In this document: positions 15,107-42,920 of the stretch, in pieces | Numbering within the stretch: position 1 is the stretch's first letter | Layout of the letters: every line of letters starts with the position of its first letter | IMG/VR virus record: IMGVR_UViG_3300036760_000229 | Span: 1 to 46,402 of that record | Direction: 5' to 3' (one strand) | Length of the DNA stretch: 46,402 bases | Source: a virus | Position numbers and translations under genes: made by a program | The notes under the pieces: model-generated | The model's input: the letters and a program-made list of their open reading frames with translations, nothing else | What the model was told of the DNA's origin: nothing | Database searches by the model: none

Positions 15107-15118
15107 GGCAACGCACCT
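15107..15118 (-). promoter_or_regulatory. Late motif copy A, AGGTGCGTTGCC
   Basis: Perfect 12-bp copy read leftward, 32 nt before the lysin ATG. The TAA stop of the upstream tail gene overlaps its first bases. Confidence 0.6.
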
Positions 15119-15591
15119 TATTGATGGATGCGCTGTCTGCGCCGGATCGCGCGGCGCTTGACCTTTCGTCTTGGCCTAGATCGCGCCCTCGACGTGAACA
15201 CCGGCGCGACGACGGTGAGATCGGCGGATCGCTTCCAGGTTGCCCCGTCCCAAAATGCCAGCGTAGCGCCGCCAGCGTCGTCCGAAATGTAGATGATCTG
15301 CCCCGGCACCCCCCCCATTGGAAGGCTCGCAACGGTGTAGGCAGGGGCCGTGAGCGGGGTAAATTCGAGCGCCGAAGCGCCGGCGTTCACGCGGGCATAT
15401 TTTCCAGCGGTGCCAGTATAGGAAACCGGCGTGTCGCTGAGCCCGGCGAATGTGCCGATCAATCCCAAGGCTAACCGGCGAACGCTGGCATCTATGAATT
15501 GCGCCCACCTGGCCCATCGCCTCGTGAGCCGCTTTTGAGGATCGACGAACTTATCGTCCTTTGGTAATCGCGCTGTTGGTATCGTGGTCAT
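15118..15591 (-). CDS. Tail-associated protein with polybasic C-terminus, 157 aa
   Basis: Residues 1-45 are helical and basic; residues 45-125 are a beta-rich tail-fibre-like segment (LSDTPVSYTGTAGKYARVNAGASALEF and PGQIIYISDDAGGATLAFWDGATWKR). The last 27 residues, from VFTSRARSRP, are more than half Arg/Lys and match the repeated FTPR modules of the neighbouring 824-aa protein. The start at 15591 overlaps that gene's stop as ATGA. A virion fibre or receptor-binding accessory is likely. Confidence 0.7.
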   Translation of the reverse strand: MTTIPTARLPKDDKFVDPQKRLTRRWARWAQFIDASVRRLALGLIGTFAGLSDTPVSYTGTAGKYARVNAGASALEFTPLTAPAYTVASLPMGGVPGQIIYISDDAGGATLAFWDGATWKRSADLTVVAPVFTSRARSRPRRKVKRRAIRRRQRIHQ

Positions 15592-18062
15592 GCGAGCGTC
15601 CAATTGCCAGCTTTCCAAGCGACAAACCAATGGCCCTTTCTCACCGACACAAGTTCGATCATCGCACCAATCTGCGTGCTGGTGATCGTCGTTCCTGTGG
15701 TCGTGCCGTCATGGATTGTGTCACCGGCCAAGGCGCTGACCTGCACGGTGTCCACAACGCCGAAAAGCATCTGCAAACCGGATGATGCGGACGGCAAAGT
15801 GAACGCTGACGGCGCAGGGATCGGAGCCGGATAGACGGTAAGGCGTATCGAGCGCGGGAGGCGCGGCTTACGAAGGCCGATCTTCCGACGCTTTGGCGAG
15901 CGGCGCTTCGGCTTGAGTGGAACCGGCCCGGTGATCGGGACGTAGGGGATGAATACGAGAACTTTCCTGCGCCTGGTCTTACGAAGTTTCAGCGCGGCCA
16001 GCAGTTTCTTGCGCGGCCGGACAAAGCGTTTCGGTGTGAATACAGGTGCGACGGGTTGCGCCTGAACGATCTTGCGGATGATGCGCGCACGACGTTTTAG
16101 ATGCTTGACGATCCGGCGGCGGCCAAATGCGCCCCTCGGTGTGAATACTGGCGCTGCGGCGGGCTGTGTCTGTGGCAAGCGGCGCGAGCTTCGGCCGCGA
16201 GCCAACCGCGCATTAATCCTGCGCCGCGCACGTTGGCGGAGTTTCGCAAGGAACTCAGGTGCGATCCTGAGCGCCATGATGAGCTGTTCGTCGAAAGCGG
16301 AAGCTACAACTGGCGCATGAGTTCTTGCATTTGCATCGCCGCTGACTTGATAGGCGAGTGTCATGGTCAAATTTGTGCTTGCAACGCCGCCTGTCGTTCC
16401 TTTTTTCGCCAGGATGCTTGTCCAGCCGTTTGCAGCATTTTCGGCATAGGCATTGGTGGATGGTCCGAGGCCAACATAAGCAGCGAACATTAAATCGTAT
16501 GCCCGCGAAGGCGTTCCGCTGGTGAGCGATGGATTTGTTTCTGCGCCACCGCTCGATCCGCGGTGTGCTTGAACGACTACATCTTCAACCCAAGGAACTG
16601 TTGGAATGAAATATGCCGCCAGAAAACCGCGCGCATATCCGGCACCGCTTATTCCGGCAAAATCAACCTGAATCGTGCTGACAGCAGAGCGGGCGATTGT
16701 CCAAAAGAATTGCGTCTTTTCATTACTGACCGCATTGTCGCTGACGGATGGAATATAATCATTGAGCGCATCGTCCGAAACAGCAATGTCAACAACGCTT
16801 GAAGTGTTCTCCGCTGCGAGAATGACAATGAGCGCGCCCGCTGGCACTCCGACAGAGTTCAATGCAAATGATGAGTTTGTCTTATCGAATGTCGAGCCGA
16901 TTGGGATTGAAGTTCCCCAAATCGTTGCAAGATATGGCGGCGGCACACGAAGATGCTGACGCCTGCGAACACCGGCTCTGTGGCGCAGTCTCCCGCGTCC
17001 TTTTGGAGTAAATACAGCGGCTGCTGCGGCTGGCTGCTCTTGCGGAAGCCGCGTCGAGCGTTTGCGAATGACGCGCGCAACTGGCTTCCGATGGCGAGCC
17101 TTCTGCTTTGGCGGAACGATCTTTTGCGGAGCCTGTGGACTGAATATCGCGGCGCGCGGCCTGAGCGTGCGCTTGCGCGGCGGCTTGATCCGAAGCGGAG
17201 GTTTCCGTCGCGCTGGCTTTGTCGGTAAAGTTTTCGGCGGCGCCTGGATGCTGAAAATTGCCGAACGAGGCGGACGAATACGACGGCGGCCAGCAATCTT
17301 ACGGCGGCGATGTCTTGAACTCGGAGGAAGAACGCGAGCGCCTTCGCGGCCGGAGATTATCGTCGGGCGCTGATGCCTTACGCGGCGGGCCGGAACGTGG
17401 CGTTTGCGAGTGCGCGCTCGTGGTGTGAAGGCTGCTGCGGCAGCCGTCTCTACCAGCAGCACATAGCCGGAGCGAGGGGTGTTACCAGAACCTAAATCAT
17501 CTTGGTCGATAGAATGATCTGCGGGGCTGGAATTATAAATCTTGTACCCGGCTAGAAGACTATTGGTAGTCCCAACCGTAGCATCAAATGCGGGACTTGC
17601 AGTGCTGAATGATGCTGGCGTGGCGGTTGTTACATAAGCCTGTCCTAGAACGAGAAGCGGTGCCGCCTGCCCAGAAGCGGAGACTGTTTGTAAAGCTGGA
17701 TTGCCGCTTGTTAATTCTCCATTCCATGTTGATGGCGTTGCACTGACAAACGCGCTAAGATTGCTATGGAATACGAGAATTACTTTTTGGTTGCGAAGAT
17801 CGCCATTTACGCCAGTAATGCTCGACCCCGGCTCCCCGGCCGCGAGAATTTTGTAACTAACAACAGAGCGTGAGCCACCGACACCGCCAATGCTTAGAGA
17901 CGCGCCTATTTGTGTAAACCCAGTAGGAACTACCTCCGCTGGCGCGCCGCTTGAATTTGAACCATCATCAAATAATACCGCCAAGTCGCCAATAGATGCG
18001 CCAGCCGGAATAGTAACTGTGCTGGATGTCGATGTCGCGCTATCTACAAAAGAGACGGTCAT
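15588..18062 (-). CDS. Modular tail protein with Arg-rich FTPR linkers, 824 aa
   Basis: Domain order: beta-sandwich-like domain 1 (1-206), polybasic linker 1 (212-375), beta-rich domain 2 (377-600), polybasic linker 2 (606-742), and a C-terminal fibre module (745-824) homologous to the C-terminus of the 20707-21384 protein. The linkers repeat the pattern [IV]FTP or IFSPQAP followed by Arg/Lys/Pro-rich stretches (near residues 212, 269, 306, 350, 639 and 674). Beta domains and position suggest a tail fibre or receptor-binding protein. Its start lies right after a terminator, so it may have its own expression control. Confidence 0.75.
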   Translation of the reverse strand: MTVSFVDSATSTSSTVTIPAGASIGDLAVLFDDGSNSSGAPAEVVPTGFTQIGASLSIGGVGGSRSVVSYKILAAGEPGSSITGVNGDLRNQKVILVFHSNLSAFVSATPSTWNGELTSGNPALQTVSASGQAAPLLVLGQAYVTTATPASFSTASPAFDATVGTTNSLLAGYKIYNSSPADHSIDQDDLGSGNTPRSGYVLLVETAAAAAFTPRARTRKRHVPARRVRHQRPTIISGREGARVLPPSSRHRRRKIAGRRRIRPPRSAIFSIQAPPKTLPTKPARRKPPLRIKPPRKRTLRPRAAIFSPQAPQKIVPPKQKARHRKPVARVIRKRSTRLPQEQPAAAAAVFTPKGRGRLRHRAGVRRRQHLRVPPPYLATIWGTSIPIGSTFDKTNSSFALNSVGVPAGALIVILAAENTSSVVDIAVSDDALNDYIPSVSDNAVSNEKTQFFWTIARSAVSTIQVDFAGISGAGYARGFLAAYFIPTVPWVEDVVVQAHRGSSGGAETNPSLTSGTPSRAYDLMFAAYVGLGPSTNAYAENAANGWTSILAKKGTTGGVASTNLTMTLAYQVSGDANARTHAPVVASAFDEQLIMALRIAPEFLAKLRQRARRRINARLARGRSSRRLPQTQPAAAPVFTPRGAFGRRRIVKHLKRRARIIRKIVQAQPVAPVFTPKRFVRPRKKLLAALKLRKTRRRKVLVFIPYVPITGPVPLKPKRRSPKRRKIGLRKPRLPRSIRLTVYPAPIPAPSAFTLPSASSGLQMLFGVVDTVQVSALAGDTIHDGTTTGTTITSTQIGAMIELVSVRKGHWFVAWKAGNWTLA

Positions 18063-18076
18063 GGGGCGGCGCTACC

Positions 18077-18118
18077 TCAAAAAGAAAAGCCGCCGAAACC
18101 ATGTCCGGCTTCGGCGGC
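18077..18118 (-). terminator. Rho-independent terminator inside the late block
   Basis: Read leftward, GCCGCCGAA (18118-18110) pairs perfectly with TTCGGCGGC (18097-18089), followed by TTTTCTTTTT (18088-18079). It lies between the 88-aa gene and the 824-aa tail gene and would limit transcription into the tail-fibre and lysis genes. Confidence 0.85.
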
Positions 18119-18147
18119 GAACCTCATGCTTTCACTCGATCCGGCTG

Positions 18148-18414
18148 CTAGCCGACTTGCTTGACGCGAATGATCGGCTTTCCCTTCATCGGGCTTTCAT
18201 CGAGATCGTCGAGTAATTGAAGCGCCAGTGTTCCGGCTTGCGCGCGAGGCATTTCGCAACGCGCTATCGGGATGCCGTCGCCGCCAGCGATGATGAAAGC
18301 CACCTTGTCCTTCTCGACGCTGACGCCGATCTGGCGGCCCGATGGATCAAACAGGCGTGGGCCGGATGCGCCGAACACCACGCCATTCTGTTTGATCGGC
18401 AGAGGCCCGTTCAT
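18148..18414 (-). CDS. Hypothetical virion-associated protein, 88 aa
   Basis: The start at 18414 overlaps the preceding stop as TAATG. The product is beta-rich (NGVVFGASGPRLFDPSGRQIGVSVEKDKVAFIIAGG) with a short C-terminal helix and basic end. Its position among tail genes suggests a minor structural or assembly role. No family recognised. Confidence 0.65.
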   Translation of the reverse strand: MNGPLPIKQNGVVFGASGPRLFDPSGRQIGVSVEKDKVAFIIAGGDGIPIARCEMPRAQAGTLALQLLDDLDESPMKGKPIIRVKQVG

Positions 18415-18932
18415 TACGCGCCCAGGCCAGCTTCGGTGAAGGTCAGGCCGCCGGACGCTTTGGGCGTACCCTGGACGGCGGTGGAATTGACACGCCAGCA
18501 AACGGTCGTACCGGCCGCCGTGATCGACTTCGAGATCGCGAACGGACCAAGGCCCTGCACCGCGCTGTCGTAGCCGTTGTAAAGATGGAACGTCTGTTCA
18601 TCGAGCGTGACCGCCGTGCCGGAAGTCGTGGCAACGGTCGTATCGCCAACGCGCGCCGTGCATTTGGCCGCGATGTCGCCCTGATCGGTCTTGGCTGGCG
18701 TTGCCGCCGATCCGCCCGAACCAATCGTGACGGTCGCAGGCAAGAACACGAGCTGCCCGTTGAGCATCTGCGCCGTGTTGAGTGTGTTGTCTGAGGAACC
18801 CATCCACCAGCGCACCACCTGAACATCGGTGACGTTCGCCGCCGTCGAGGTCACGAGCGTCACAAGCGATACGAGATCGCATGAGTTCGTGAACGTCATG
18901 CCGTGGAAGGTGAGCTGGTAGAGCCGGGCCAT
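18414..18932 (-). CDS. Putative structural protein, 172 aa
   Basis: Rich in Thr, Ala, Ser and Val with alternating beta pattern, as in phage decoration or tail proteins (MARLYQLTFHGMTFTNSCDLVSLVTLV...). No signal peptide. I chose 18932 because the longer frame lacks a better start and the late motif copy F lies 54 nt upstream. Exact role unknown. Confidence 0.7.
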   Translation of the reverse strand: MARLYQLTFHGMTFTNSCDLVSLVTLVTSTAANVTDVQVVRWWMGSSDNTLNTAQMLNGQLVFLPATVTIGSGGSAATPAKTDQGDIAAKCTARVGDTTVATTSGTAVTLDEQTFHLYNGYDSAVQGLGPFAISKSITAAGTTVCWRVNSTAVQGTPKASGGLTFTEAGLGA

Positions 18933-18986
18933 GGTTTTCCTGTCCTCTAATCCGAGGGTGCCGACTGTGACCAATGGCGGGTCACC

Positions 18987-18997
18987 TTCAACGCACC
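18987..18997 (-). promoter_or_regulatory. Late motif copy F (diverged), GGTGCGTTGAA
   Basis: Shares GGTGCGTTG with the other copies but differs at the 3' end and lies farther (54 nt) from the next ATG. It begins 7 bp after the TAA of the fibre gene. Confidence 0.4.
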
Positions 18998-19004
18998 GCT
19001 AGGC

Positions 19005-20702
19005 TTACATCAGGATCAGGGAGCCGCTTTGGGATGCCTCGAAATCGGTGGGGTCCACGAAACCGACCGTCGGATAGCGATAGCGAATCAAATGCTGCGC
19101 GCGCTGACGCACCCACGGCGTCTCGAATGAGCGATTGAGCGCGGCCATGATGAGTTCGCCGGTGAGATAATCCGTATCGCGGGCGGGCGCCGGGTCGCTC
19201 CAAATGCGGACAACAGCATCTTCGACCGCCGTATCGAGCGTCACATAACCGCCCTTGAAGCCGGGATAGGGGTTGTTTTTTTCGATGAAATTGGGATCGG
19301 CCTGAATGGCGTCAGCATCATCCCATCCTGGGAAACGAACGAGTTTGCCGGTGAAGGTGAAATCCGCCTGCTCAAGCTCAATGTCGTTCACGGTCACGCG
19401 AAGATCGGCCTGCACCATGACGCGGAAGGTGATCGGAAATTTCGAGCGCGCATCGCCAACGCGATATTCGTTAAATGGCCTTTGCTCAAACGGCAAAAGC
19501 TGGCGGACGGTATATTCGACCGCAGGGCATTCGCGCTCGGCGGGATCATCGTCTCCTTCGACCGGAGTGAAGGCATCGCCTTCAAGGCCGAGAAAATAGA
19601 GGCCCAATCCCTCATTCGCTGTGCCTGGGCCGGGCGACCAAATTGCTCCCTTGAACGGCTCGTATGTCAAAGAATATGCCAGCGGCATCCACGGATCATC
19701 TGGCCAGAGTGTCACGTTGTAGATCGTCTCAACGCCCGTCTCACGATTGAACAGCGCAAAATCCCATTGGGTGTCGATGATCTTCCTGCAGAATACTGGA
19801 TCTTCGCGCCAGTTCATCAGATCGGCGATAAATGAAAGATTGCCGCCGCTCTCGTTCACAATCCCACGACTATCCATTGTGAACACGTCGCCAACGAGAA
19901 CGCAGGTGGTGGGATTCCAAAAAGCCACTCGCCCGCTGTCATACCAAAGGATGAAGCGGTTGAGCGACGGGATATTTGTCATTTTCATCAGGGGATCGCC
20001 GTCGCCATAGGGCGTGTAGGTGGCCTCGAATGTTGCGGTTATCACGCCAGCGACTTCGGTCAGCCCGTAGCGCGCGAGCTTTCCATTATTCGATGAATAC
20101 CAAAGCTTGCCTGCGTTATCGAAGTGGCAATCTTGCAGGGGGGCCGCGAACGCAAGCTGGCCGGCGCGCGTGGTGAGAAAGGAGTTGCTCGGTATGTGAT
20201 AGATGCTTCGCGTGTTGTTGTCTGCCGCGAGCGGAACGCTGATCCCGGCGGCGAAGGTTTCGGTGCCATCAATCGCAATGTGGGTGATGTTGTTGTCAAC
20301 GGAGCTACCACCGACATTGTGGCCGCTGTGCTGGACGTAGGCCAACGTCTCGCGGTCGAATACGGTCCAAAAGAGCCCGGTGGTGGCATCCGGCGGCGCA
20401 TTCCATCCTGTCGTCGTGACGATGTATTGCCCGCCAGGCGCGAGCGCGAGAGGAGTTTTGGTTGGCCCGCTCATCCCCGTGACAGAAGGCCAAACGCCGG
20501 AACCGTCAGCGTCGGGGATGGCGCTCGATATCAGCGCGCCGATGTTGTTCCACTTCGAAAGGTATTCATAATCATTGGTGCCACCGCTGTAGATATAGAC
20601 GCGATGTTCCGCTTCCTCTCGAATTAGCACATGAACGAAATTCTGAATCGTCTGATCGGGAATTTCGAACAGAGGATCAATTACTGTGTCGGTATATGCC
20701 AT
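19005..20702 (-). CDS. Tail fibre-like protein, 565 aa
   Basis: Residues 1-390 are rich in beta strands with repeated aromatic-acidic turns, compatible with a propeller or beta-sandwich. Residues about 415-520 resemble the T7-type fibre N-terminal domain (FPITFRVMVQADLRVTVNDIELEQADFTFTG...GGYVTLDTAVEDAVVRIWS). The C-terminal 45 residues are helical and basic. A virion-attached fibre or adsorption protein is the best reading. It starts 4 bp after the 20707 gene ends. Confidence 0.75.
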   Translation of the reverse strand: MAYTDTVIDPLFEIPDQTIQNFVHVLIREEAEHRVYIYSGGTNDYEYLSKWNNIGALISSAIPDADGSGVWPSVTGMSGPTKTPLALAPGGQYIVTTTGWNAPPDATTGLFWTVFDRETLAYVQHSGHNVGGSSVDNNITHIAIDGTETFAAGISVPLAADNNTRSIYHIPSNSFLTTRAGQLAFAAPLQDCHFDNAGKLWYSSNNGKLARYGLTEVAGVITATFEATYTPYGDGDPLMKMTNIPSLNRFILWYDSGRVAFWNPTTCVLVGDVFTMDSRGIVNESGGNLSFIADLMNWREDPVFCRKIIDTQWDFALFNRETGVETIYNVTLWPDDPWMPLAYSLTYEPFKGAIWSPGPGTANEGLGLYFLGLEGDAFTPVEGDDDPAERECPAVEYTVRQLLPFEQRPFNEYRVGDARSKFPITFRVMVQADLRVTVNDIELEQADFTFTGKLVRFPGWDDADAIQADPNFIEKNNPYPGFKGGYVTLDTAVEDAVVRIWSDPAPARDTDYLTGELIMAALNRSFETPWVRQRAQHLIRYRYPTVGFVDPTDFEASQSGSLILM

Positions 20703-20706
20703 GGCG

Positions 20707-21384
20707 TCAGGCCACGGCCCAGGTGCCGTTCTTCGAGGCCACGGACCAGCTTTCTCCGGTGAGGCAGATGAGGCGCAGGATGCTTCCTATGGCGCTGGCT
20801 GAAATGGCCGTGCCGGATGAACTTACGTCCCTGATGGTGTCCGTGCCGTCCGCTCCGATGGTCAGGGTAGCCGCGCGCACGATGGCGAATTCGATGGTCA
20901 GGCCAGCGCTCGCTGGCGGAAGCGTGTATCCGGCGACGGTGCCAAGATTGGTGAAAAGCTGGCCGCAATCTTCGAGCGCGATAACCGTTGGCGCATTGAA
21001 GGTGAGAACAGGCGTCCGCTGAGCGCGGAGGCGGAGATCGCGGGCCCGCGCTGTCAAGCGGTCAAACTCCGTGTTGGCCGCCCGCGTCGGAAGCCCGCCG
21101 CCTTCGGTGAAATCAGTGACGCGAACGGGCGGTATTTCGGACCAAATAAGCACCGTGCAACTCGACACGGCCACATCGAGCGTCACCGTGCCGCCAGGGT
21201 AGCCGCCCTCCAAACCGGGCGTGCCGACAATCTCGAACGCATCCTGCGCCAGCTCGACATTATCGACTGTGATCCGAAGGTCCGACTTATCGAAAAAGGT
21301 GAAGTTGATGTCGAACGTCGCATCGGCTCCGGTAACGACAAATTCGTTGAGCGGGATCTGATCTGGGACGGTGATATGGGGCAT
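20707..21384 (-). CDS. Tail fibre protein with T7-type N-terminal domain, 225 aa
   Basis: Residues 10-100 match the T7-like fibre attachment domain (FDINFTFFDKSDLRITVDNVEL...GGTVTLDVAVSSCTVLIWSEIPP), a helix around 105-130 suggests trimerisation, and residues 150-225 form a beta module shared with the 824-aa protein. It is short for a full fibre, so it may be an adaptor on which other fibres dock. The late motif copy B sits 32 nt upstream, right at the edge of the cargo cassette. Confidence 0.8.
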   Translation of the reverse strand: MPHITVPDQIPLNEFVVTGADATFDINFTFFDKSDLRITVDNVELAQDAFEIVGTPGLEGGYPGGTVTLDVAVSSCTVLIWSEIPPVRVTDFTEGGGLPTRAANTEFDRLTARARDLRLRAQRTPVLTFNAPTVIALEDCGQLFTNLGTVAGYTLPPASAGLTIEFAIVRAATLTIGADGTDTIRDVSSSGTAISASAIGSILRLICLTGESWSVASKNGTWAVA

Positions 21385-21416
21385 AGCGCGTCATTCGCGC
21401 GCCGAGTGCGGTAATC

Positions 21417-21428
21417 GGCAACGCACCT
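21417..21428 (-). promoter_or_regulatory. Late motif copy B, AGGTGCGTTGCC
   Basis: Perfect copy, 32 nt before the ATG of the fibre gene at 21384. It would allow expression of fibre and lysis genes despite the opposite-strand transposase gene upstream. Confidence 0.6.
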
Positions 21429-21477
21429 CAATGGCCTCCGACAACCTTCGATGGCGGGAAAATGGGCGTATATGTAC

Positions 21478-21506
21478 TTGACAAACAGGACGGGATAACC
21501 TAGCTT
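21478..21506 (+). promoter_or_regulatory. Sigma-70-like promoter of the transposase gene
   Basis: A consensus -35 TTGACA (21478-21483) is followed after 17 bp by TAGCTT (21501-21506) as a weak -10. An AAGGAG ribosome binding site follows, 9 bp before the transposase ATG at 21528. Confidence 0.55.
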
Positions 21507-21527
21507 ATAGGTCAAGGAGTTAGACCT

Positions 21528-22478: not shown

Positions 22479-22617
22479 GTCCATTCTTAACCGCGAAAGA
22501 TATATTGACCACGCGTCATCTTCCTTTGACTCCGCGTTTTCCTATTGATTCTGCGGGAAAACGTTCTTGTAACGCAGCCCTTGATTCGCATTATCTCACT
22601 TGGGTTTAGCGAAAAGT

Positions 22618-22633: not shown

Positions 22634-22646
22634 CCTAGACCCAGTG

Positions 22647-22719
22647 CGCGCCCGGCAGGATTTAAACCTGCATCTCACCGTTCGGTAAACAGTTGCTCTA
22701 TTCGTTGAGCTACGGGCGC
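22647..22719 (-). tRNA. tRNA with Arg-type body, anticodon loop reads ACC
   Basis: A 73-nt cloverleaf: 7-bp acceptor (GCGCCCG/CGGGCGC), 4-bp D stem (GCTC/GAGC), 5-bp anticodon stem (ACTGT/ACGGT with one G-U), 5-nt variable loop and 5-bp T stem (GCAGG/CCTGC). Discriminator G73; no CCA is encoded. The 7-nt loop TTACCGA places ACC at 34-36, formally Gly (GGU), but the body and G73 look like tRNA-Arg. The D loop has A where G19 is usual and the T loop has T at position 56, a matching pair change. Isotype is uncertain. Confidence 0.8.
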
Positions 22720-22726
22720 AAATTGG

Positions 22727-22754: not shown

Positions 22755-22757
22755 CGT

Positions 22758-23153: not shown

Positions 23154-23180
23154 GTTAGAACCTCATAGGCTTAACGAAAG

Positions 23181-23262
23181 TGGCCCCGACCGGACTTGAA
23201 CCGGCACGCCTGGATGGCTTCGGTTTTAAAGACCGCTGCGTCTACCATTCCGCCACGGGGCC
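23181..23262 (-). tRNA. tRNA-Leu-like gene with UUA (ochre-reading) anticodon
   Basis: An 82-nt class II cloverleaf: acceptor GGCCCCG/CGGGGCC, leucine-type D arm (GGCGGAATGGTAGACGC), long variable arm (GCC...GGC), T arm GCCGG-TTCAAGT-CCGGT and discriminator A73. The anticodon arm is GCGGT-CTTTAAA-ACCGA: CGGT/ACCG fixes a 7-nt loop with TTA at 34-36, which pairs with UAA stop codons. Ordinary tRNA-Leu(UAA) would have TTTAAAA as its loop. One mismatch (27-43) sits at the stem end. CCA is not encoded. Confidence 0.85.
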
Positions 23263-31073: not shown

Positions 31074-33212
31074 CTAAAAATCGACCTCCATCATCAGCGA
31101 TAACACGATCAGCGGCGCGGGCGCGCATTGGGCGATTATCGGAACTAGCGTATCGCCACGTCCTGGCACCTTGAACTTCTTTGCTTCGGTGCGGAGCGGC
31201 GGCGCAATGTCCAAAGCCTCGCCCGTGCGATAGGCCGGGCTGAGTTGGCTATTGAGGGTATAGGAACCCGTATCCTTCACATGGATCAGGACTTGCGGGA
31301 TGCCGTAGCGTTGGCCATGGCGGAAGGCCGGATGCTGGATTTTCGGCGGTAATGGAGAGACATCGACGTTGGCATGAAGCCCGGCGACATAAGCCCCATC
31401 ATCGAGATCGAATGTGGTCAGCACTCCGCCCGCGCTAGTCGTATAAAGCCCATGAAACCATGTCGTTTCGCTGATCACATCGAGCTCGGTTGAAGGATAG
31501 TCCGCAAGCGTGACAGAGGGTGCGGTAAATGCCACCGCACCGTCGATCAGCAAATCCTCGTCGAATTCCTCAAGCCACCACACTTCCACATCGTTGATAA
31601 GCCGCTGCACGATGGCGAAATTCTTGCCACCGGCGCAGAACATCGAGCGGAAGCTGCCGTTGGTCGTCCATGGTGTCCAGCCAATCGGAACATCGCTGGT
31701 CACGGATTGATATTTGGCGCAGGCGATAGAGCCGTCGTCGTTGACCACATAGGCATAACGTTCATCGCGCGATGTAATGCCGATGTCGGCGGCAAGCCCG
31801 CGCGGGCCAGTAATCTGCTCGGTCCAGAATGTCGTGAGATTTTGCGTCTGCCATGGGCCTTGCACGTTGCCTGTCGGCAAAATGCCAAGCACCCGGTTTG
31901 CGCCCTCCTCGACGAAGGCGAAGCCCAATTCGGTTGAAACCGGCTTCACCGGCGAAGCGCCCACCGGCGAGATAAGCCGGAAGTCGATGGTCGAAGGCGT
32001 GACCACTTGCGTCCCGTATTCGGGAATGTAGTAGCAAGCCTTATCGGTCAGCACGATGCCCTGATCGGCGGTGATCAGATGAAGCGCGCGCTGACCCTTG
32101 TAATCGGGGATCAGTTCAAAGAACGCATCGCCATCATTCGCGCCAATCTTGAAATACTCCGGGAAGCCAGCAGCCGAAGCCGTAATGCCGCGTGGCAAAT
32201 CTCGCATGTTGAGAAAATACAACCGCCCACGATGAACCGCGCATGTGCCGGGATAACCGCGAACCGCCGAGAACGCTTGTTCATCCCAATCGACCACGGC
32301 GGCCGGCGTCGTATCCGTCGGGCCAAAGACGATGTCGGATTGCGCATTGTTGTCGCCGACCAGCGTTTCGCCATTGGTGAAGCCAGTCAGGCCACTTGTA
32401 TAAACAATGGTGAGGACAACCCCCGCCTTATTGACGATGATGCCCTTGGCACCGGAATCCAATCCTTCGCAACTGGTATCCACCATGAAGCCATCGCCAT
32501 TTGATACTGAGACGATGACGGTTTTCGGCAATGTTGAAACGATTGTGCCGGTCGCAGTTAACGGATCGATGACTGCGGTGATCAGAATTTCGTAGCCCAG
32601 ATAGCGGAAATATGTGTCGGTATGATTGGCGTCGAACACATCATCACTGGCGACCAGCGTGATTGACCCCGTGACCGCGCTCGGCTGCAATGTGATCCCT
32701 TTGTCTGCATAGCGCCAATAGGGTTGCGCAGGAGCGCCAGCCGGTCCCGCCTGAAAGACAAAATCATCAAACGACCAAACTCCCGCATCATCGACCGAAA
32801 TCACTTGCGGCCAGAACGTCGTATGCGTGACGATGAATTTCCCATCGTCGAGCGAAAAGCACATGACATCGATGATCGATGATCCCCACGGCGCCCCGGT
32901 CAGCGTATCGACGAGCGCATTATCCTCGTCGAAAATATCGACCTCGGTATGCCGGAAGACCAGCTTGAAGATGCTGCCATCGGGCGCAACATATTCGACG
33001 CCGACGGCCTTCCCGTCGAGCGTCACGCGCTTCCATGTGCCAGCCCTGCGCTTGAGCGCGCCGCCCGCGAGGATGCGCGTATTCAGGCCAGTGGTCAGAC
33101 CATTGTTATAGATTTGCTTCGAGCGGTCTTTGCGCGCGCGGCTGTCGATCTGACCGGCTGAGAAATTGGTGACTTCACATTCTTCGAGGGGCACTTCCGA
33201 GCCTCCTCGCAT
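31074..33212 (-). CDS. Tail tubular protein B (nozzle)-like, 712 aa
   Basis: The protein is almost all beta, with the opening EVTNFSAGQIDSRARKDRSKQIYNNGLTTGLNTRILAGGALKRRAGT that is typical of podovirus tail nozzle (gp12/TTPB or stabilisation) proteins, and it directly follows a TTPA-like gene. It forms the distal tail tube through which DNA exits. The start used (33212) overlaps the preceding gene by 38 bp; an in-frame GTG at 33194 is possible. Confidence 0.85.
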   Translation of the reverse strand: MRGGSEVPLEECEVTNFSAGQIDSRARKDRSKQIYNNGLTTGLNTRILAGGALKRRAGTWKRVTLDGKAVGVEYVAPDGSIFKLVFRHTEVDIFDEDNALVDTLTGAPWGSSIIDVMCFSLDDGKFIVTHTTFWPQVISVDDAGVWSFDDFVFQAGPAGAPAQPYWRYADKGITLQPSAVTGSITLVASDDVFDANHTDTYFRYLGYEILITAVIDPLTATGTIVSTLPKTVIVSVSNGDGFMVDTSCEGLDSGAKGIIVNKAGVVLTIVYTSGLTGFTNGETLVGDNNAQSDIVFGPTDTTPAAVVDWDEQAFSAVRGYPGTCAVHRGRLYFLNMRDLPRGITASAAGFPEYFKIGANDGDAFFELIPDYKGQRALHLITADQGIVLTDKACYYIPEYGTQVVTPSTIDFRLISPVGASPVKPVSTELGFAFVEEGANRVLGILPTGNVQGPWQTQNLTTFWTEQITGPRGLAADIGITSRDERYAYVVNDDGSIACAKYQSVTSDVPIGWTPWTTNGSFRSMFCAGGKNFAIVQRLINDVEVWWLEEFDEDLLIDGAVAFTAPSVTLADYPSTELDVISETTWFHGLYTTSAGGVLTTFDLDDGAYVAGLHANVDVSPLPPKIQHPAFRHGQRYGIPQVLIHVKDTGSYTLNSQLSPAYRTGEALDIAPPLRTEAKKFKVPGRGDTLVPIIAQCAPAPLIVLSLMMEVDF

Positions 33213-33768
33213 CTATGAGCGGGGACGTTTTTACGTCCTTCGGGAATTTCTGCTTCGAGTCCTGGAAACGCGCGCGGGCGAATTTCCTTTCCGCGCGGCC
33301 TTCGGCTTCGTTCGCATCATTGGGCTTTTTGTCAGCCCGGAGATAAAGCGCTTCAAGGCGGCAAATAATGCCTTCCTTGAAATCAGCGGGCCATAAATCT
33401 TCCGCCGCGCGATAGGTATAGACCGCGTAAACGTCCTCATCGGTGTTGGAGAGAACGACGCCATCTTCGTCGAGCTGATATTCGATGGGCTGACCATTCA
33501 CGATGATCGTGAGCAATTTCAGAACATCGCTCGGAAGCGTTAGAGCGAAAGAGAAATCCTCATCAACCGGCGCATCGGGAAGCAGCGTGCAGGCGTCAGT
33601 CTTGCGCGCGAAGCTCCAAGGAGCCTCGCTTAAAGCCGTTTGAACGATTTGCTCGTAATTGGTGCTGGCGAGGATGGCTTCGACCGTTCCGTCATCGACG
33701 CTCGTGATCGGATTATCCTGCGCGCGGGCTATCGCTGCATTGATGAGGACGATTGATTCCGCGGACAT
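33175..33768 (-). CDS. Tail tubular protein A (gatekeeper)-like, 197 aa
   Basis: The pattern SAESIVLINAAIARAQDNPITSVDDGTVEAILASTNYEQIVQTALSEAPWSFARK, then a beta-rich middle and LWPADFKEGIICRLEALYLRA, fits podovirus head-tail adaptor (T7 gp11/TTPA) proteins, which bind the portal and the nozzle. Its place between capsid genes and the nozzle gene agrees. Confidence 0.83.
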   Translation of the reverse strand: MSAESIVLINAAIARAQDNPITSVDDGTVEAILASTNYEQIVQTALSEAPWSFARKTDACTLLPDAPVDEDFSFALTLPSDVLKLLTIIVNGQPIEYQLDEDGVVLSNTDEDVYAVYTYRAAEDLWPADFKEGIICRLEALYLRADKKPNDANEAEGRAERKFARARFQDSKQKFPKDVKTSPLIDARRLGSAPRRM

Positions 33769-34617: not shown

Positions 34618-34625
34618 GGCTGCTC

Positions 34626-36050: not shown

Positions 36051-36061
36051 TTGGTGTTACC

Positions 36062-36817
36062 TCACTTTTTCGCGTTCGCCTCGGCGAGGGCCGCGCGACC
36101 GAAACCTGGTTTGCCGACTTGTTGCTTCAATTCGCCGTTTTCGGGTTGCTCGCCTTGCGTGCCTTTGCCGGACATCTTCGAGCCGGTGGCTTTCTGAATG
36201 AGCGCCTCGATTGCCATTACGGCATCGGCGGACGTGGCCGACATGAGAAGGGCTGCGGCCTGATCCTTTGTCAGATTGGCGCTGGCCCAATTCGAAACCG
36301 CTTCAAGGCGCTTTGTGGCAGCATCGCCATCGCCGAGCTTTTTCATTTCGGTGGTGAATACTTCGTTGGCGGCATCGACAGTCGCCTTTTTCTCCGCTGC
36401 GTCGGCCGTTGCCCATCCTGCTACAACTTTGGAAACTTGAGCTTGCGATAGACCAAGCTCTTTCGCCAAAGGAGTGAATGCCGCAACTTTCGCTTCGCTG
36501 ACCTTCCAGCTTTGGACAAATTTGTCGTTGAGGCCCTCTGGCCTCTCCCAATTTTTGGGAATGGCAAAATCGTATTTGCCATCTGCGGGGATGAGCTTCG
36601 TGCGTTCGGCGGCCTGCTGCTTTAGTGTGAGCCCTTCGTTGACGGCGGCGACCAAATCCTTTGTCGCCAGCGCGCCGTCTTTGCCGATGAACGTTTCTGG
36701 AAGGCCAGCGGCTTTCAGATCGTCGAGCGCAACGGCGTTGACGGCGGACCCTTTGTCGCCGCCGCCTTCGCCAGCGCCTTTATCTGCGCCGTCTTGACCT
36801 TCGCCTTCACCAGCCAT
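36062..36817 (-). CDS. Scaffolding protein, 251 aa
   Basis: Acidic and glycine-rich at the N-terminus, helical and Lys/Ala-rich through the middle (AEKKATVDAANEVFTTEMKKLGDGDAATKRL), with a basic C-terminus (KPGFGRAALAEANAKK) that would touch the capsid protein. Such a profile, directly upstream of the major capsid gene, is typical for scaffolds (capsid assembly proteins) that guide procapsid formation and then leave. Confidence 0.82.
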   Translation of the reverse strand: MAGEGEGQDGADKGAGEGGGDKGSAVNAVALDDLKAAGLPETFIGKDGALATKDLVAAVNEGLTLKQQAAERTKLIPADGKYDFAIPKNWERPEGLNDKFVQSWKVSEAKVAAFTPLAKELGLSQAQVSKVVAGWATADAAEKKATVDAANEVFTTEMKKLGDGDAATKRLEAVSNWASANLTKDQAAALLMSATSADAVMAIEALIQKATGSKMSGKGTQGEQPENGELKQQVGKPGFGRAALAEANAKK

Positions 36818-36823
36818 TCGAAA

Positions 36824-37084
36824 TCATTCCTCTGAGCACATTTGCTCGATAAGCGCGGCGAGTTGACGTTTGCCCTCATGCTCCCGCAACGCACCGTCAG
36901 AAACGCCAGCGCCCAATGAACGATGAATTGTCGTTGCCATCAGCCATCCGAGCGCGGTCTGACCATCCGGCGTTTTCGCTATGCGCCGCCAAGCCGCTAC
37001 TACCTGCGCTTTGTCTTTCGCGTGTTCGGATTTGAGTTTGGGATCGCCGCGAAGATTGTCGAAGGTGCGCGCTTGTTGCTTCAC
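36824..37084 (-). CDS. Small hypothetical protein, 86 aa
   Basis: Starts MKQQARTFDNLRGDPKLKSEH at an ATGA overlap with the portal stop. Two helices separated by a tryptophan-containing turn (VVAAWRRIAKTPDGQTALGWLMATTIHRSLG). Small proteins of this kind between portal and scaffold are common in podoviruses; role unknown. Confidence 0.7.
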   Translation of the reverse strand: MKQQARTFDNLRGDPKLKSEHAKDKAQVVAAWRRIAKTPDGQTALGWLMATTIHRSLGAGVSDGALREHEGKRQLAALIEQMCSEE

Positions 37085-38691: not shown

Positions 38692-39002
38692 CAGAGCAGA
38701 TGCGACAGGCCGCCATCGCCCGTCCCTCCACCACCTGAAGAACCGCTGCTTGTCGTTCCATAGGCGCCACCTAATGCGCCACCGAGATTGCCGCCGAACA
38801 ACGGAATGCCGCCGATGCCGCCGCCTGCCCCGCCCGAAAACATCGAGCGGCGGCCATACATGCGAAGGCGAAGCAAATCCTCGGCGCTTAATTGTTCGGA
38901 GAGCAGCGAAATTCTATCGCGCCGCGCCAGCGCCGCCTGCGCCTTTTGCTGCTTGTCGAGAAGCTTGTCCTGTTTGGTGGGGGATGGAGAACCGAAGCCC
39001 AT
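38691..39002 (-). CDS. Small glycine-rich protein, 103 aa
   Basis: The first half is helical and charged (TKQDKLLDKQQKAQAALARRDRISLLSEQL), the second half is glycine-rich (GGAGGGIGGIPLFGGNLGGALGGAYG). It starts 32 nt after the late motif copy C and its stop abuts the portal start. Similar small proteins occur next to portal genes; function unknown. Confidence 0.7.
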   Translation of the reverse strand: MGFGSPSPTKQDKLLDKQQKAQAALARRDRISLLSEQLSAEDLLRLRMYGRRSMFSGGAGGGIGGIPLFGGNLGGALGGAYGTTSSGSSGGGGTGDGGLSHLL

Positions 39003-39034
39003 GCGCGGGACAATGGGCGGGGGGCTTCAAATGC

Positions 39035-39046
39035 GGCAACGCACCT
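39035..39046 (-). promoter_or_regulatory. Late motif copy C, AGGTGCGTTGCC
   Basis: Perfect copy, overlapping the TAG stop of the terminase gene and 32 nt before the ATG at 39002. It would drive or mark the portal-capsid-tail segment. Confidence 0.6.
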
Positions 39047-40844
39047 AACGGCGCGCTAGAAGCGCAAATCGTTTCTCAGGCTTATCGCCGCGGCTGAGCG
39101 GATCGAAATGCCGACGCACATTCACCGCCGCCGGCCTCGATTGCCGGCCCATCATGGTCCTGCCCTCGCCAGCGCCAAGGAACAGATATTGTAAAGCATC
39201 GGCGATATTCGATGCCGGGTTCTTTTCAGGCTCCGGCGTGTATTCCTCACGTCCCGCCACCTGCAAGCGGCGATAGCGATATGCCCCATCGCAAGCCGCA
39301 ATCAGCATCCGGCAGCATGGCGACACGACCACCCGGAACGTATCGATGATCACTTCGGCCGTCGTCAGCCGATGCTCGATCGTATTCCCGCCTGGCGCCG
39401 CAAGCAGCCTAATCCCATGCTTGGCGAACACGCTATCGACCGTCTGATCGTCAATGTCCGAACGCTGAGAATGCGGATCGCGGTAAAACACGATGGTCAT
39501 GCGATCTATCGTCAGCCCGCATGGCCGAAGCAAATCCGCAATCTTGCGCCGCACCATCGGCGCGAAGGTTTCGCAATTCACATCGCGCACCACCAGCTCG
39601 CCACAGATATGCCAGCGATTGTGAATTACCTGGGCGAACACCGCGGCCGGGCTGCGCCCCGTCGAATCGATCCCGACATGCAGAATGAAATTCGGATCGA
39701 CCGGAATATCCTTCGCGGCGACATGCTTTTCTCTATCGAAATTCGGCCAAACCGGCTTGCCGGAAACGCTCTCGCCAAGCTTGTTGCAGAAATTCACCCG
39801 TATCCATGAACGGGGCTTGCCGCCGATGCCATCGAGATAAGCCTTATGGCCGCCCCGCAGATTATGAATATTCTCAGCCTTCGAATTGGGAACGAATTGC
39901 GAGCGCCCGGCCTCATCCTTCACTTCCAACAGCGCGCCAGGCTGAATGTAATACACCCAGTTTTTCGGCTTGACCAAAGCCGAACGATCATCGTCGCTCA
40001 CATCTTCGGGGATCGGCACTTCCCCCATCATCTGCGGAAGCCAATGGGTTTCCGACGGCGCGTTGGTATCCATGAACACGCCGGCCCACGTCGCGCCACC
40101 ATCCCTCATCGGAGGGAAGCGCGCTTGCATGACGCGGCCGATCAAATCGTCGATAATCGGCTTGCGGATTTCGCGGGCTTCATTCACCCATGCCCCGGTC
40201 AATTCGAGCGAAAGCAGCTTTTGGCGATCTTCCTCGTCGGCCAGCGCGAGAAAAATAACCTCCATCTCGATTGTCGTTTGGCCATCATTATCGTCGAGCG
40301 GCCCATTGCAACGGATCATATGTTGCAAAGGCCGCGATTTCCGCATCTGCCCATAAATATGCTCGGGGAACCATTCCAGCCACGTCCTGATCGTCGTCTC
40401 TTGAAGGTTCGGATATGAATCGCGGACCACGGCCCAGCGCGAACGCCGCACGCCGCGACGATCCGGCGCTTGCAGCCCCGCCGCTTTAAACAGCTTCCCG
40501 ACGCAGGCAACGCTTTTGCCCGAGCCCCACGGCCCGCGAATAATCGTGACCTGGCTGAAATCCTGCATAAAGCGTTCCAGCACTTCGCCGTCCGGCGTCA
40601 TGCCGAGGATGCTTGATATCTCCGGGGCCGGGTTGGACCGCGCAGCGTCCGCCGCGCGCTTCTTTGCTTGATGATCCTTCTGCCTTGCCGCGCGCTTAGC
40701 TTGCGTCCGCTCAAACGCTTCCAGCCGAGGCACCTTCGAGCTCGGTCGCACCCTCCTTAACTTATCGAGGTAATATCCCTCAGGAACTTCCGGCGCCGCG
40801 GCCGGCACATCACCCGCGGGAGATACGGGCTCGGATCCCGCCAT
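39045..40844 (-). CDS. Terminase large subunit, 599 aa
   Basis: The ATPase part shows Walker A GPWGSGKS at 104-111 and a following TGAWVNEAREI that fits the Walker B/coupling region. The C-terminal nuclease domain starts near HVGIDSTGRSPAAVF with the RNase H-type Asp and ends with NPASNIADALQYLFLG. It packages concatemeric DNA into the prohead and cuts it. It starts 1 bp into the preceding stop (TGATG). Confidence 0.93.
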   Translation of the reverse strand: MAGSEPVSPAGDVPAAAPEVPEGYYLDKLRRVRPSSKVPRLEAFERTQAKRAARQKDHQAKKRAADAARSNPAPEISSILGMTPDGEVLERFMQDFSQVTIIRGPWGSGKSVACVGKLFKAAGLQAPDRRGVRRSRWAVVRDSYPNLQETTIRTWLEWFPEHIYGQMRKSRPLQHMIRCNGPLDDNDGQTTIEMEVIFLALADEEDRQKLLSLELTGAWVNEAREIRKPIIDDLIGRVMQARFPPMRDGGATWAGVFMDTNAPSETHWLPQMMGEVPIPEDVSDDDRSALVKPKNWVYYIQPGALLEVKDEAGRSQFVPNSKAENIHNLRGGHKAYLDGIGGKPRSWIRVNFCNKLGESVSGKPVWPNFDREKHVAAKDIPVDPNFILHVGIDSTGRSPAAVFAQVIHNRWHICGELVVRDVNCETFAPMVRRKIADLLRPCGLTIDRMTIVFYRDPHSQRSDIDDQTVDSVFAKHGIRLLAAPGGNTIEHRLTTAEVIIDTFRVVVSPCCRMLIAACDGAYRYRRLQVAGREEYTPEPEKNPASNIADALQYLFLGAGEGRTMMGRQSRPAAVNVRRHFDPLSRGDKPEKRFALLARR

Positions 40845-40963
40845 CAGCCCTCATCCCGGCCCCAGGGCCCAAATACCGCCGCCAGCGTCAAAATCACGCC
40901 GGCCAAGAACGCCGCAATCAGACCAAACGGCAGCCCCAATACGCAGGCCCCATCAAGCCCCAT
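40844..40963 (-). CDS. Membrane micro-protein, 39 aa
   Basis: Start ATG at 40963 overlaps the stop of the gene before it, and its TGA overlaps the terminase ATG. The product is one hydrophobic helix (VLGLPFGLIAAFLAGVILTLAAVF) with a short charged tail. Coupling on both sides argues that it is translated. Confidence 0.6.
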   Translation of the reverse strand: MGLDGACVLGLPFGLIAAFLAGVILTLAAVFGPWGRDEG

Positions 40964-41064
40964 CACGACCGCCCCCGCAAAATCTCGTCAGCCCCGCCAG
41001 CAATATCCACAATCGCCCCTACAACGACCGAGAGAAACAGAAAAAATCCCCGTAGCGCCCTCAT
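40963..41064 (-). CDS. Membrane micro-protein, 33 aa
   Basis: MRALRGFFLFLSVVVGAIVDIAGG..., a single hydrophobic helix with basic N-terminus, joined by ATGA and TGATG overlaps to its neighbours. Function unknown; a small holin-like or membrane-targeting peptide is possible. Confidence 0.55.
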   Translation of the reverse strand: MRALRGFFLFLSVVVGAIVDIAGGADEILRGRS

Positions 41065-41255
41065 CGCGGTAATCCGAAAAAAATCACCGCCAACACAACA
41101 GCCGTCCCAATCCAAAGCAAAACCCGCAACCAAATTTCAGAAATGAAAAAATTCCTGCGCCGCGCGGAAACTACCCCAGGGATTTCAGCGCCAGCCGATT
41201 TTCCCCCCGGCTTCGCTGCACGCGGATCGGCCAATCCCCCGGATAATTCGCTCAT
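41061..41255 (-). CDS. Small membrane protein, 64 aa
   Basis: N-terminal 35 residues are Gly/Pro/Arg-rich and soluble; residues 38-62 form one transmembrane helix (EIWLRVLLWIGTAVVLAVIFFGL). ATGA overlaps with both neighbours. Third of three consecutive tiny membrane-protein genes between the terminase subunits. Confidence 0.6.
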   Translation of the reverse strand: MSELSGGLADPRAAKPGGKSAGAEIPGVVSARRRNFFISEIWLRVLLWIGTAVVLAVIFFGLPR

Positions 41256-41788
41256 TTCCGCGCGTTCCTCATGGCTGGGTGGGGAACGGGGATGGGCAAG
41301 CCATTGTCAGACTTGGCGCTTTCGACTTCGACCGCCTGACCATCTATCAGCAGCGCGGTTTCTGGCTCAGTCCAATCACGCGAATAGATGATCTGTAGCC
41401 CAGGGATCGAGTGTTGATGAATATGCTGATGCTGGCTGCGTTCTATCGGGCCTTTGCCATCGAGCTTGAGCAGCAATTCATTGGCTCCGAGCTTCACATG
41501 CTCGGATTCCGCACCACCGGCCAGAACATCGATGCGAGCAATGCTTTTCGCCGCTGCGCTGGTGCGTATCAGGTCTATCTGCGTATTCATGTACGCGAGC
41601 ACTTCTGGCTTTTTGAGTGCTTTACGGACTGCATCATCAGTTATGAGCGCGGCGCTGGCTCCTTGAGCCCTGTTTCCGCCTTCGTAGACCATGAAGTCGA
41701 TTGCGCGTCTGATATTGCGGGAAATGCGCACGGTCTTGGGGCGGTGTGCGTGCGGATGCTGGATTGTGACGGTTTCGAGGGCTGCCAT
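41252..41788 (-). CDS. Terminase small subunit-like protein, 178 aa
   Basis: The start at 41788 (MAALETVTIQHPHAHRP) is preceded by the late motif copy E at 34 nt. The N-terminal half (RPKTVRISRNIRRAIDFMVYEGGNRAQGASAALITDDAVRKALKKPEVLAYM) is a helix-turn-helix-like segment as in phage small terminase or phBC6A51-type proteins, which recognise the packaging site. The rest is helical then acidic. Its place just upstream of the large subunit, and a strong dyad upstream, fit this role. Confidence 0.7.
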   Translation of the reverse strand: MAALETVTIQHPHAHRPKTVRISRNIRRAIDFMVYEGGNRAQGASAALITDDAVRKALKKPEVLAYMNTQIDLIRTSAAAKSIARIDVLAGGAESEHVKLGANELLLKLDGKGPIERSQHQHIHQHSIPGLQIIYSRDWTEPETALLIDGQAVEVESAKSDNGLPIPVPHPAMRNARK

Positions 41789-41822
41789 GGCGAAGGGACG
41801 GTGCTGAGCGTATGGCTTGAGC

Positions 41823-41833
41823 GGCAACGCACT
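41823..41833 (-). promoter_or_regulatory. Late motif copy E, AGTGCGTTGCC
   Basis: Differs from the consensus by one missing G; 34 nt upstream of the small terminase ATG at 41788. Confidence 0.5.
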
Positions 41834-41906
41834 GGCGATTTGGAGGCTGAAGGAACAGGGGGCTTTGGAGGCGCGGCGCTGTTTGTCCGGTTGCGCGTTA
41901 ACGATT

Positions 41907-41957
41907 GAGACAGGTGTGTCCGCAGCATAAGAAGTATGCTGTACCCGGACCTGTCTC
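41907..41957. repeat. 51-bp two-armed dyad upstream of small terminase
   Basis: Outer arms GAGACAGGT (41907-41915) and ACCTGTCTC (41949-41957) and inner arms CAGCATA (41923-41929) and TATGCTG (41935-41941) are all perfect, with symmetrical 7-bp internal loops and a 5-bp centre. It fills the gap between two genes. No T-run follows, so it is not a standard terminator. A packaging (pac/cos) or protein-binding site is possible. Confidence 0.75.
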
Positions 41958-41958
41958 A

Positions 41959-42534
41959 TTAACCTTTGAGACGCCTATACCATGTGGCGCGGGAGCATTT
42001 GGCCGCTAGCCATGGTGTCTGCTTGGCGATTGATCGGGCGAGATATTGGGCGCGGCGAAGGGCGCCCTTTTCGCGGCGTTTGGCTTCCTTTGCGGCGCGG
42101 TTTCTGACCTTTCGGGCTTTGCGGCGTTCGGCGGCCGAGAGATCGCATGCGCCGATTGTGGTTATGCCGAGGTTTGCGCGCTCTTTCTCATAGAGGCCGA
42201 GCATCCATGCTAGCTTGTCGGCCTTCCATAGTTTCGGGCGCGACATCACATCGGCGAAGAGGTCGAGGGTTTGCTCGTAGCCGAACCAAGGCGCGGAACA
42301 TGCCAGGAAGTCCTTGAGGCGTGGCCGCTGGTCGCCTGGCAAGCGGGCCAGATGGTGGCAAATCACTGTGGCCAAGCATCGGGCGGCCGGGTGTTCCGGC
42401 ATGGCTTCGCCGCGATAGCGGGTGCGCATGAGGCGCATGAGTTCCTTAATGCGCACGGAATTGAGATTGACCGTCGAATGGCGGCGTTTGCGCTGGTGTG
42501 GCCGCGGGGTGGCACGTGAGAGCGGGCTATTCAT
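41959..42534 (-). CDS. Basic HTH-like hypothetical protein, 191 aa
   Basis: Strongly basic, with a helical centre and a C-terminus ending SIAKQTPWLAAKCSRATWYRRLKG, a helix-turn-helix-like ending I recall from phage and integrative-element proteins of Alphaproteobacteria. Residues 140-165 are an Arg/Lys/Ala-rich helix. It may be a DNA-binding regulator in the late region. The start at 42534 overlaps the preceding small gene. Confidence 0.7.
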   Translation of the reverse strand: MNSPLSRATPRPHQRKRRHSTVNLNSVRIKELMRLMRTRYRGEAMPEHPAARCLATVICHHLARLPGDQRPRLKDFLACSAPWFGYEQTLDLFADVMSRPKLWKADKLAWMLGLYEKERANLGITTIGACDLSAAERRKARKVRNRAAKEAKRREKGALRRAQYLARSIAKQTPWLAAKCSRATWYRRLKG

Positions 42535-42682
42535 TGAGGGCCAGCTCGGCGCATCTGCGCATGTAATCAGCCATGCGCTGGTTGCCAGCGGATTCCAGCT
42601 TTTCAGCGTATGCGCGGCACCAAGCGGCGTAATGCTCGCGCTCGGCGGGCGTCATGCCCAAGAAGAGTCGATCATCCGCCAT
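42527..42682 (-). CDS. Small hypothetical protein, 51 aa
   Basis: MADDRLFLGMTPAEREHYAAWCRAYAEKLES..., a two-helix product overlapping both neighbours (11 bp and 8 bp). The frame and composition look coding; function unknown. Confidence 0.6.
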   Translation of the reverse strand: MADDRLFLGMTPAEREHYAAWCRAYAEKLESAGNQRMADYMRRCAELALNE

Positions 42683-42869
42683 GCTTGCGGAGCCGTTCTA
42701 GGGCTGCGGTGGCAATGCGGATGGCTTCGATTGAGCGGGGGTTGATGTGCCTGACGGGAGCGGGTTCTAACTCCGGGGCGCGGCGGGCCTGGTCATGGAT
42801 GAAGCGCGCAATCTCGGCGCGCAAGTCTCGATCATATTTGTTGCGTTCGTAAGAGCGCGTTTGGCGCAT
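42672..42869 (-). CDS. Small hypothetical protein, 65 aa, first late gene
   Basis: Start ATG at 42869 (MRQTRSYERNKYDRDLRAEIARFIHDQARRAPE); a TTG two codons upstream is the alternative. Basic and helical. It is the first gene of the leftward late block, 30 nt after the late motif copy D, and overlaps the 51-aa gene. Confidence 0.65.
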   Translation of the reverse strand: MRQTRSYERNKYDRDLRAEIARFIHDQARRAPELEPAPVRHINPRSIEAIRIATAALERLRKHGG

Positions 42870-42899
42870 GGCCAAGGCTCATGGCGGGGCGGGAGCGTC

Positions 42900-42920
42900 G
42901 GCAACGCACCTAACGCACCT
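42900..42920 (-). promoter_or_regulatory. Late motif copy D with tandem half-copy
   Basis: Perfect AGGTGCGTTGCC at 42911-42900, preceded by an overlapping AGGTGCGTT (42920-42912). This tandem arrangement stands at the head of the late block and beside the divergent early promoter. Confidence 0.6.

Follow-up and report, generated by a model that had tools for sequence, protein, structure and literature searches.

A repeated box ahead of podophage late genes as the probable upstream half of a sigma-70-like late promoter

The IMG/VR virus record IMGVR_UViG_3300036760_000229 (46,402 nucleotides, analysed over its whole length and called the window below) carries a 12-bp motif, AGGTGCGTTGCC, ahead of several of its late genes. 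This motif most probably forms the upstream half of a late promoter, phage-specific and sigma-70-like, that would give rise to leaderless late mRNAs, and a phage activator of the XRE family is proposed to read it. The predicted promoter is composed of GTGCGTTG(C), a stretch of 17–19 nt and a -10-like hexamer CANNNT. Transcription would start at the start codon or within one or two bases of it, yielding leaderless late mRNAs, while a minority of copies would serve genes that have a short leader and a Shine-Dalgarno (SD) sequence. The GTGCG part of the box would be read by the XRE-family activator, encoded by the phage upstream of its late genes, and this protein would help the host RNA polymerase, presumably carrying the primary sigma factor, at these weak promoters.

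The window belongs to a podophage. The genes coding small and large terminase, portal, capsid, tail and internal virion proteins follow each other on the minus strand from ~43 kb to 14 kb, and the recombination genes are found on the plus strand. Among 50,697 phage records none is closely related to the 22 kb stretch 20001–42000; at the protein level the relatives are Microcystis phage Mwe-JY08, Pelagibacter phages and Pseudomonas phage Ab31. None of the 30 window proteins compared with PHROGs matched an RNA polymerase family, and a T7-like single-subunit polymerase was not found among them. This bears out an earlier sequence-only reading of the window, which had seen no phage RNA polymerase gene and had proposed that the motif is a phage-specific late promoter or activator site used by the host polymerase. 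The fixed spacing to a -10 element, the restriction to the late strand and the presence of the motif ahead of the same late genes in distant phages, all described below, support that proposal. The -10 element, the leaderless geometry, the wide distribution of the box, its uniformity within each phage and a candidate phage-encoded reader had gone unnoticed.

Four exact copies of the 12-mer are found on the minus strand of the window (named here by their first base: 42911, 39046, 21428 and 15118), none on the plus strand and none of the reversed control pattern, while simple arithmetic predicts ~0.006 copies. Copies with up to 3 mismatches show no overall excess in the window (44 found for 54.9 expected), and the signal is thus confined to strong copies. 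All four exact copies had been listed in the sequence-only reading and are confirmed. Its two variants, at 41834 and 18998 (10/12 and 9/12 positions identical), are as it described them except that each is one base longer at its 5' end than written. The distances to the ATG that it gave, 32 nt for 15118, 21428 and 39046, 30 nt for 42911, 34 nt for 41834 and 54 nt for 18998, are correct. Its list of six sites was incomplete, a seventh strong copy (CGGTGCGTTGCG) lying inside a short open reading frame (ORF). The conserved core of the motif is the 8-mer GTGCGTTG; the A/G and CC that flank it belong for the most part to the version of the window phage. In the relative IMGVR_UViG_3300029892_000020 the counterpart of the 42911 promoter is an exact match at 12/12 positions and precedes an ATG by 31 nt, and CAGTGCGTTGAC stands 31 nt ahead of the ATG of its own small terminase gene.

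The motif was traced in other phages. A pattern scan identified one distant relative (records G001 and G002, terminase 39% identical to that of the window) in which the homologue of gene 41959–42534 has a perfect copy 31 nt ahead of its ATG; further copies precede the small terminase gene and a tail gene of this relative. The motif is also carried by loci fetched through similarity to the product of 41959–42534 (protein X) and, independently, through terminase similarity. The exact core GGTGCGTTG occurs 19 times at 26–36 nt before an ATG in 12 phages, counted after removal of the duplicates G008 and G002, where 150 shuffled cores gave a mean of 0.19 and a maximum of 2; the distance between core and ATG peaks sharply at 29–32 nt. 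A further set consists of 57 loci that were collected by terminase similarity, not by the motif, and then de-duplicated (22 of the 79 initial loci were dropped because more than 40% of their length was covered at 90% identity by another record). In these loci GTGCGTTG is positioned 28–33 nt before an ATG at 31 sites on the late strand and at 2 on the other strand (shuffled 8-mers: mean 0.75, maximum 4). A scan of IMG/VR DNA for the motif followed by an ATG gave mostly chance matches inside genes; among the 118 stretches listed from it, the only kin with the box in place was one relative seen twice (L048 and L068). Note that two of the IMG/VR records, G003 and G014, have identical direct repeats (123 and 126 bp) situated at their ends or close by and are therefore probably complete genomes.

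Turning to the second half of the proposed promoter, alignments anchored at the ATG show a prominent A at -11 and a prominent T at -7. The hexamer NANNNT is found 17–19 nt downstream (counted from two bases past the 8-mer) in 159 of 235 GTGCGTTG copies from 81 records, no ATG being required, while shuffled 8-mers have it in ~10% of cases. The offsets 17, 18 and 19 nt account for 42, 81 and 39 copies over a background of ~5 per offset. The element thus has the features of a sigma-70-like -10, with A at position 2, T at position 6 and the canonical distance from -35. Its consensus is CANNNT rather than TATAAT, the first base being C in 125 and T in 17 of 212 hexamers. The TTG of the box sits at the -35 position and GTGCG forms an extra conserved block ahead of it.

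The hexamer ends 5–7 nt before the ATG at 65 of 87 sites (shuffled spacers: mean 7.1, maximum 16; control starts: 77/684), which places the transcription start at or beside the start codon. An SD-like 4-mer is present in only 1 of the 87 leaders, as opposed to 200 of the 684 control starts. The spacing of the -10, the distance to the ATG and the scarcity of SD sequences together argue for an extended -35 element and predict that most of these mRNAs are leaderless. Among the seven strong copies of the window, 42911, 39046 and 15118 fit this geometry exactly; 41834 (9 nt between hexamer and ATG) and 21428 (poor -10) fit it approximately. The 18998 site can be understood as a leadered version of the same promoter because its CACAGT lies 31 nt before the ATG and the gene has an SD-like AGAGGA.

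Additional peaks in the distance between box and ATG, at 37, 46 and 53 nt, correspond to boxes inside coding sequence or to leadered promoters. These sites are outside the counts on 87 sites and inside the count on 235 copies. In L246, L256, L247, G005, G010 and similar loci the box is part of a coding sequence, CANNTT follows 18 nt downstream and ATGs are found at 37 or 46 nt. These boxes could be internal promoters or reflect protein conservation, which could account for them as the 37/46 group keeps one spacing throughout. In the 53-nt class an SD-like GGAG follows. The seventh box of the window, 36896, is similarly placed, and such boxes, followed by CANNTT 18 nt on, are also found in other phages; it is a candidate for a weak or leadered promoter of gene 36817–36062.

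A different role, in module exchange, where the motif would serve as a boundary or recombination sequence, had been put forward as an alternative in the sequence-only reading. Copies do lie at gene borders and two of them overlap the stop codon of the upstream gene. The overlap is meaningful at 15118, preceded by 196 open codons, and at 39046, where the large terminase gene (601 open codons) ends; at 21428 the TGA closes just 23 open codons. The fixed spacing to the -10 and the ATG and the phage-specific respelling of the box ahead of orthologous genes are features of promoters that would have no role in recombination, and a boundary function, which is not needed to explain the copies, is scarcely credible.

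The spelling of the box bears on who reads it. At 214 sites with one of four spellings, concordance within records was 586, compared with a maximum of 482 in 2000 shuffles, which leave shared descent in place. Records L260, L211, L215, L212 and L232 use solely GTGCGGTG and G403 solely GTGCAGTG, while most others use GTGCGTTG. A tail gene homologous to window gene 33175–33768 illustrates the respelling: about 24 of 35 records have, as judged by eye, a box of this family upstream of it, in spellings that include GTGCGTTG, GTGCGGTG, GTGCATTG, GTGCAGTG and GTACGTTG. The window itself has no box ahead of 33175–33768. The box is thus a repeated, phage-specific element found on the late strand ahead of late genes, as in activator-dependent late promoters, and a spelling that is uniform within a phage and different between phages points to a reader encoded by the phage.

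The same promoter might instead be used by the host polymerase alone, through a primary or alternative sigma factor that prefers GTGCGTTG-N17-19-CANNNT, without any phage reader. The distance between the TTG of the box and the -10 hexamer resembles that in sigma-70 promoters, and leaderless mRNAs are common in some hosts (a part of PMC4117421 gives 375 for Caulobacter and cites 171 for S. meliloti). The variation of the box from phage to phage disagrees with reading by the host only. In 190 genomes of one sampled bacterial class, perhaps not that of the hosts, the full pattern with ATG had 29 matches (25 genomes) and the reversed control 7, and the pattern is therefore not in general promoter use in that class. 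Relatives of the terminase are present in 14 of 385 genomes of a sampled bacterial class; five of these 14 loci, examined at greater length, contain 6 box-like 8-mers, 0 of them with a -10. Recognition by the host alone is held to be unlikely.

The candidate reader in the window is the product of 44062–44907, which combines an amino terminal part similar to DUF3102 (Pfam PF11300) with a carboxyl terminal domain of XRE/HTH_3 type. Its gene lies ahead of the late block and has the orientation of the late genes. Clustering of ORFs across phage records showed that 12 of the records encode a small helix-turn-helix protein ahead of their late genes. A hidden Markov model profile of the XRE domain, built from 15 records including the window protein, detects the domain upstream of the terminase and in the same orientation in 31 of 38 records that have at least 6 kb of upstream DNA, and in 22 of 25 loci that were not used to build it. 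Two of ten members pass the Pfam HTH_3 cut-off of 23 (L142 with 23.7 and L211 with 23.8) and four more are below it; the window domain alone has no HTH_3 match in Pfam. The structural model of the window domain (pLDDT 86.7) matches the XRE proteins HipB and C.Esp1396I in the PDB, with Foldseek E values above 0.1 and probabilities up to 1.00. In five outgroup phages the best match to the XRE profile has an E value of 0.002, and boxes with a -10 are near chance (4/30). Position and distribution make the XRE protein a candidate for reading the box, with chances that are roughly even.

A number of observations weigh against the proposed promoter and its reader. A standard -10 (NANNNT at offset 17–19) is missing at the perfectly spelled 21428 site and at 36896. 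The set of 81 records includes G001, which was found with the motif, and ten records found with protein X; 37 of the 81 are without any site of the ATG geometry, many of them being short fragments. L273, L279 and G401 have boxes and no match to the XRE profile, and in L282, L277 and L239 the XRE domain is present and no box of the four spellings is accompanied by a -10. Moreover, shared descent alone could make the box and the XRE type travel together. Two side observations concern possible readers. The box-bearing phage L273 codes, ahead of its terminase, a small protein (6800–7165, plus strand) that by eye resembles the DNA-binding domain of DnaA and is reminiscent of GafA/GafY. In G404, G406 and G410 the XRE proteins have cysteines in their amino terminal part (CP..GC) and differ in the recognition helix (DHLAK and similar sequences); these phages also carry a GTGCAT-type box.

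Alternatively, the box could be the site of a Q-like antiterminator that is loaded at the promoter and affects elongation more than initiation. In Ab31 the genome slot of the candidate XRE gene is filled by a gene annotated as Q, and GafZ of the Caulobacter gene transfer agent (GTA) binds between -35 and -10 and antiterminates, according to a part of PMC11150451. Pure antitermination would make promoters at many late gene starts redundant, the box overlaps the -35 position rather than the spacer, and no match to a Q family was found among the window proteins scanned. This explanation is considered quite improbable.

Protein X was also weighed as the reader. It is an orphan, with no PHROG or Pfam family and no PDB match to its all-helical model at E ≤0.001, and a search of 385 genomes of the sampled bacterial class yielded 0 that contain it. 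Its family (loci L154–L167) is often encoded directly behind the first late promoter, and nearly all loci fetched through it carry the box before the X gene and before the next gene. It is absent from Mwe-JY08, G409 and other phages that have the box. Protein X was rejected as a general reader and has very little chance of reading the box; it may have a role in the subgroup that carries it.

The XRE-activated promoter may represent a new form of late control, an idea put forward tentatively and held at slightly less than even chances. A large clade of podophages would have, in the slot of Q, an XRE protein that reads an asymmetric GTGCG fused to the -35 element and governs a leaderless regulon. 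Box and reader would co-evolve, and switches among GTGCGTTG, GTGCGGTG, GTGCAGTG and GTGCATTG would insulate the late genes of one phage from the reader of another. It would explain how late genes are transcribed across a broad, little-studied set of phages with short tails, where no gene for an RNA polymerase was seen and for which the literature searched described no promoters (of 174 papers that contain the 8-mer and mention a promoter, the matches listed were judged from titles and the openings of abstracts). If correct, a whole leaderless late regulon would be unusual for phages, and late expression would be tied to the ability of the host to translate such mRNAs. As the box is respelled from phage to phage and most genomes contain a candidate reader gene, the co-evolution of promoter and reader can be tested directly. 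The boxes also help to fix start codons, for instance by placing that of the small terminase gene of the window at 41788 instead of 41959.

The features of the window are listed in Table 1. The small terminase was assigned by its match to PHROG 2538, and the protein coded downstream of the 15118 promoter matches PHROG 24118, whose function is unknown.

Table 1. Putative late promoters and associated genes of the window (all on the minus strand; promoter assignments are predictions).
Feature	Coordinates	Box	-10-like hexamer	Start codon and remarks
Candidate box reader	44062..44907			DUF3102-like part (PF11300) amino terminal; XRE/HTH_3-type domain 44065–44325
Late promoter, head of late block	42870..42920	AGGTGCGTTGCC 42911–42900; 9-bp tandem half copy 42920–42912	GAGCCT 42880–42875	ATG 42869, 5 nt on
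Protein X, orphan family at head of late operon	41959..42534			Conserved in alignments
Late promoter before small terminase gene	41788..41834	CAGTGCGTTGCC 41834–41823	CACCGT 41803–41798	ATG 41788, 9 nt on
Late promoter overlapping large terminase stop codon	39002..39046	AGGTGCGTTGCC 39046–39035	CATTGT 39015–39010	ATG 39002, 7 nt on
Box within 3' end of ORF 36824–37084	36861..36896	CGGTGCGTTGCG 36896–36885	TCAACT where -10 expected	
Late promoter before tail-fibre-like gene (PHROG 1640)	21384..21428	AGGTGCGTTGCC 21428–21417	GCGAAT 21398–21393, degenerate	ATG 21384
Leadered late promoter	18932..18998	CGGTGCGTTGAA 18998–18987	CACAGT 18969–18964	ATG 18932, behind SD-like AGAGGA
Late promoter	15074..15118	AGGTGCGTTGCC 15118–15107	CATCCT 15087–15082	ATG 15074, 7 nt on

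Two further elements are found near the 21428 promoter. A tRNA with anticodon TTA, labelled tRNA-Stop by ARAGORN (23180–23262, minus strand), is close to a tRNA-Gly (22646–22719) and is possibly ochre-suppressor-like. Between the tRNAs and the promoter, the plus-strand ORF 21528–22478 matches only PHROGs of unknown function; we take it to resemble a transposase of ISXO2/IS1595 type. A homologue is located upstream of a late promoter in G001 and G002.

Several known systems share parts of the proposed organization. T4 MotA, Mu C, P2 Ogr and phi29 p4 are phage-encoded readers that act with the host polymerase at promoters composed of a repeated upstream element and a sigma-70-like -10. They belong to other activator families and recognize other boxes than those of the window phage, and their promoters are not known to be leaderless. 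At lambda PRM the helix-turn-helix protein CI, bound beside the -35, activates the leaderless cI mRNA; this is a single lysogeny promoter, in contrast to the late regulon considered here. Podophages similar to Ab31 have virion genes related to those of the window and use the same slot of the genome, although Ab31 is a more distant relative in which an annotated Q antiterminator takes the place of the XRE protein and boxes with a -10 are at chance level (1/5). The Caulobacter GTA is a phage-derived late cluster that is turned on by the dedicated proteins GafY and GafZ with host RpoD and by antitermination (PMC11150451, in part); its proteins and DNA elements are unlike those described here, its ZBE lying between -35 and -10. 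The C proteins of type II restriction-modification systems (C.PvuII, C.Esp1396I, C.Csp231I) are a parallel to the proposed system in their XRE fold, a site embedded in the promoter and leaderless transcripts, which parts of PMC4824078 and PMC2997769 describe as common for C-protein operons. The two arrangements differ in that C-boxes are palindromic and serve one small autoregulated operon, whereas GTGCGTTG, with no conserved inverted partner in the aligned flanks, is an asymmetric 8-mer that stands ahead of many late genes.

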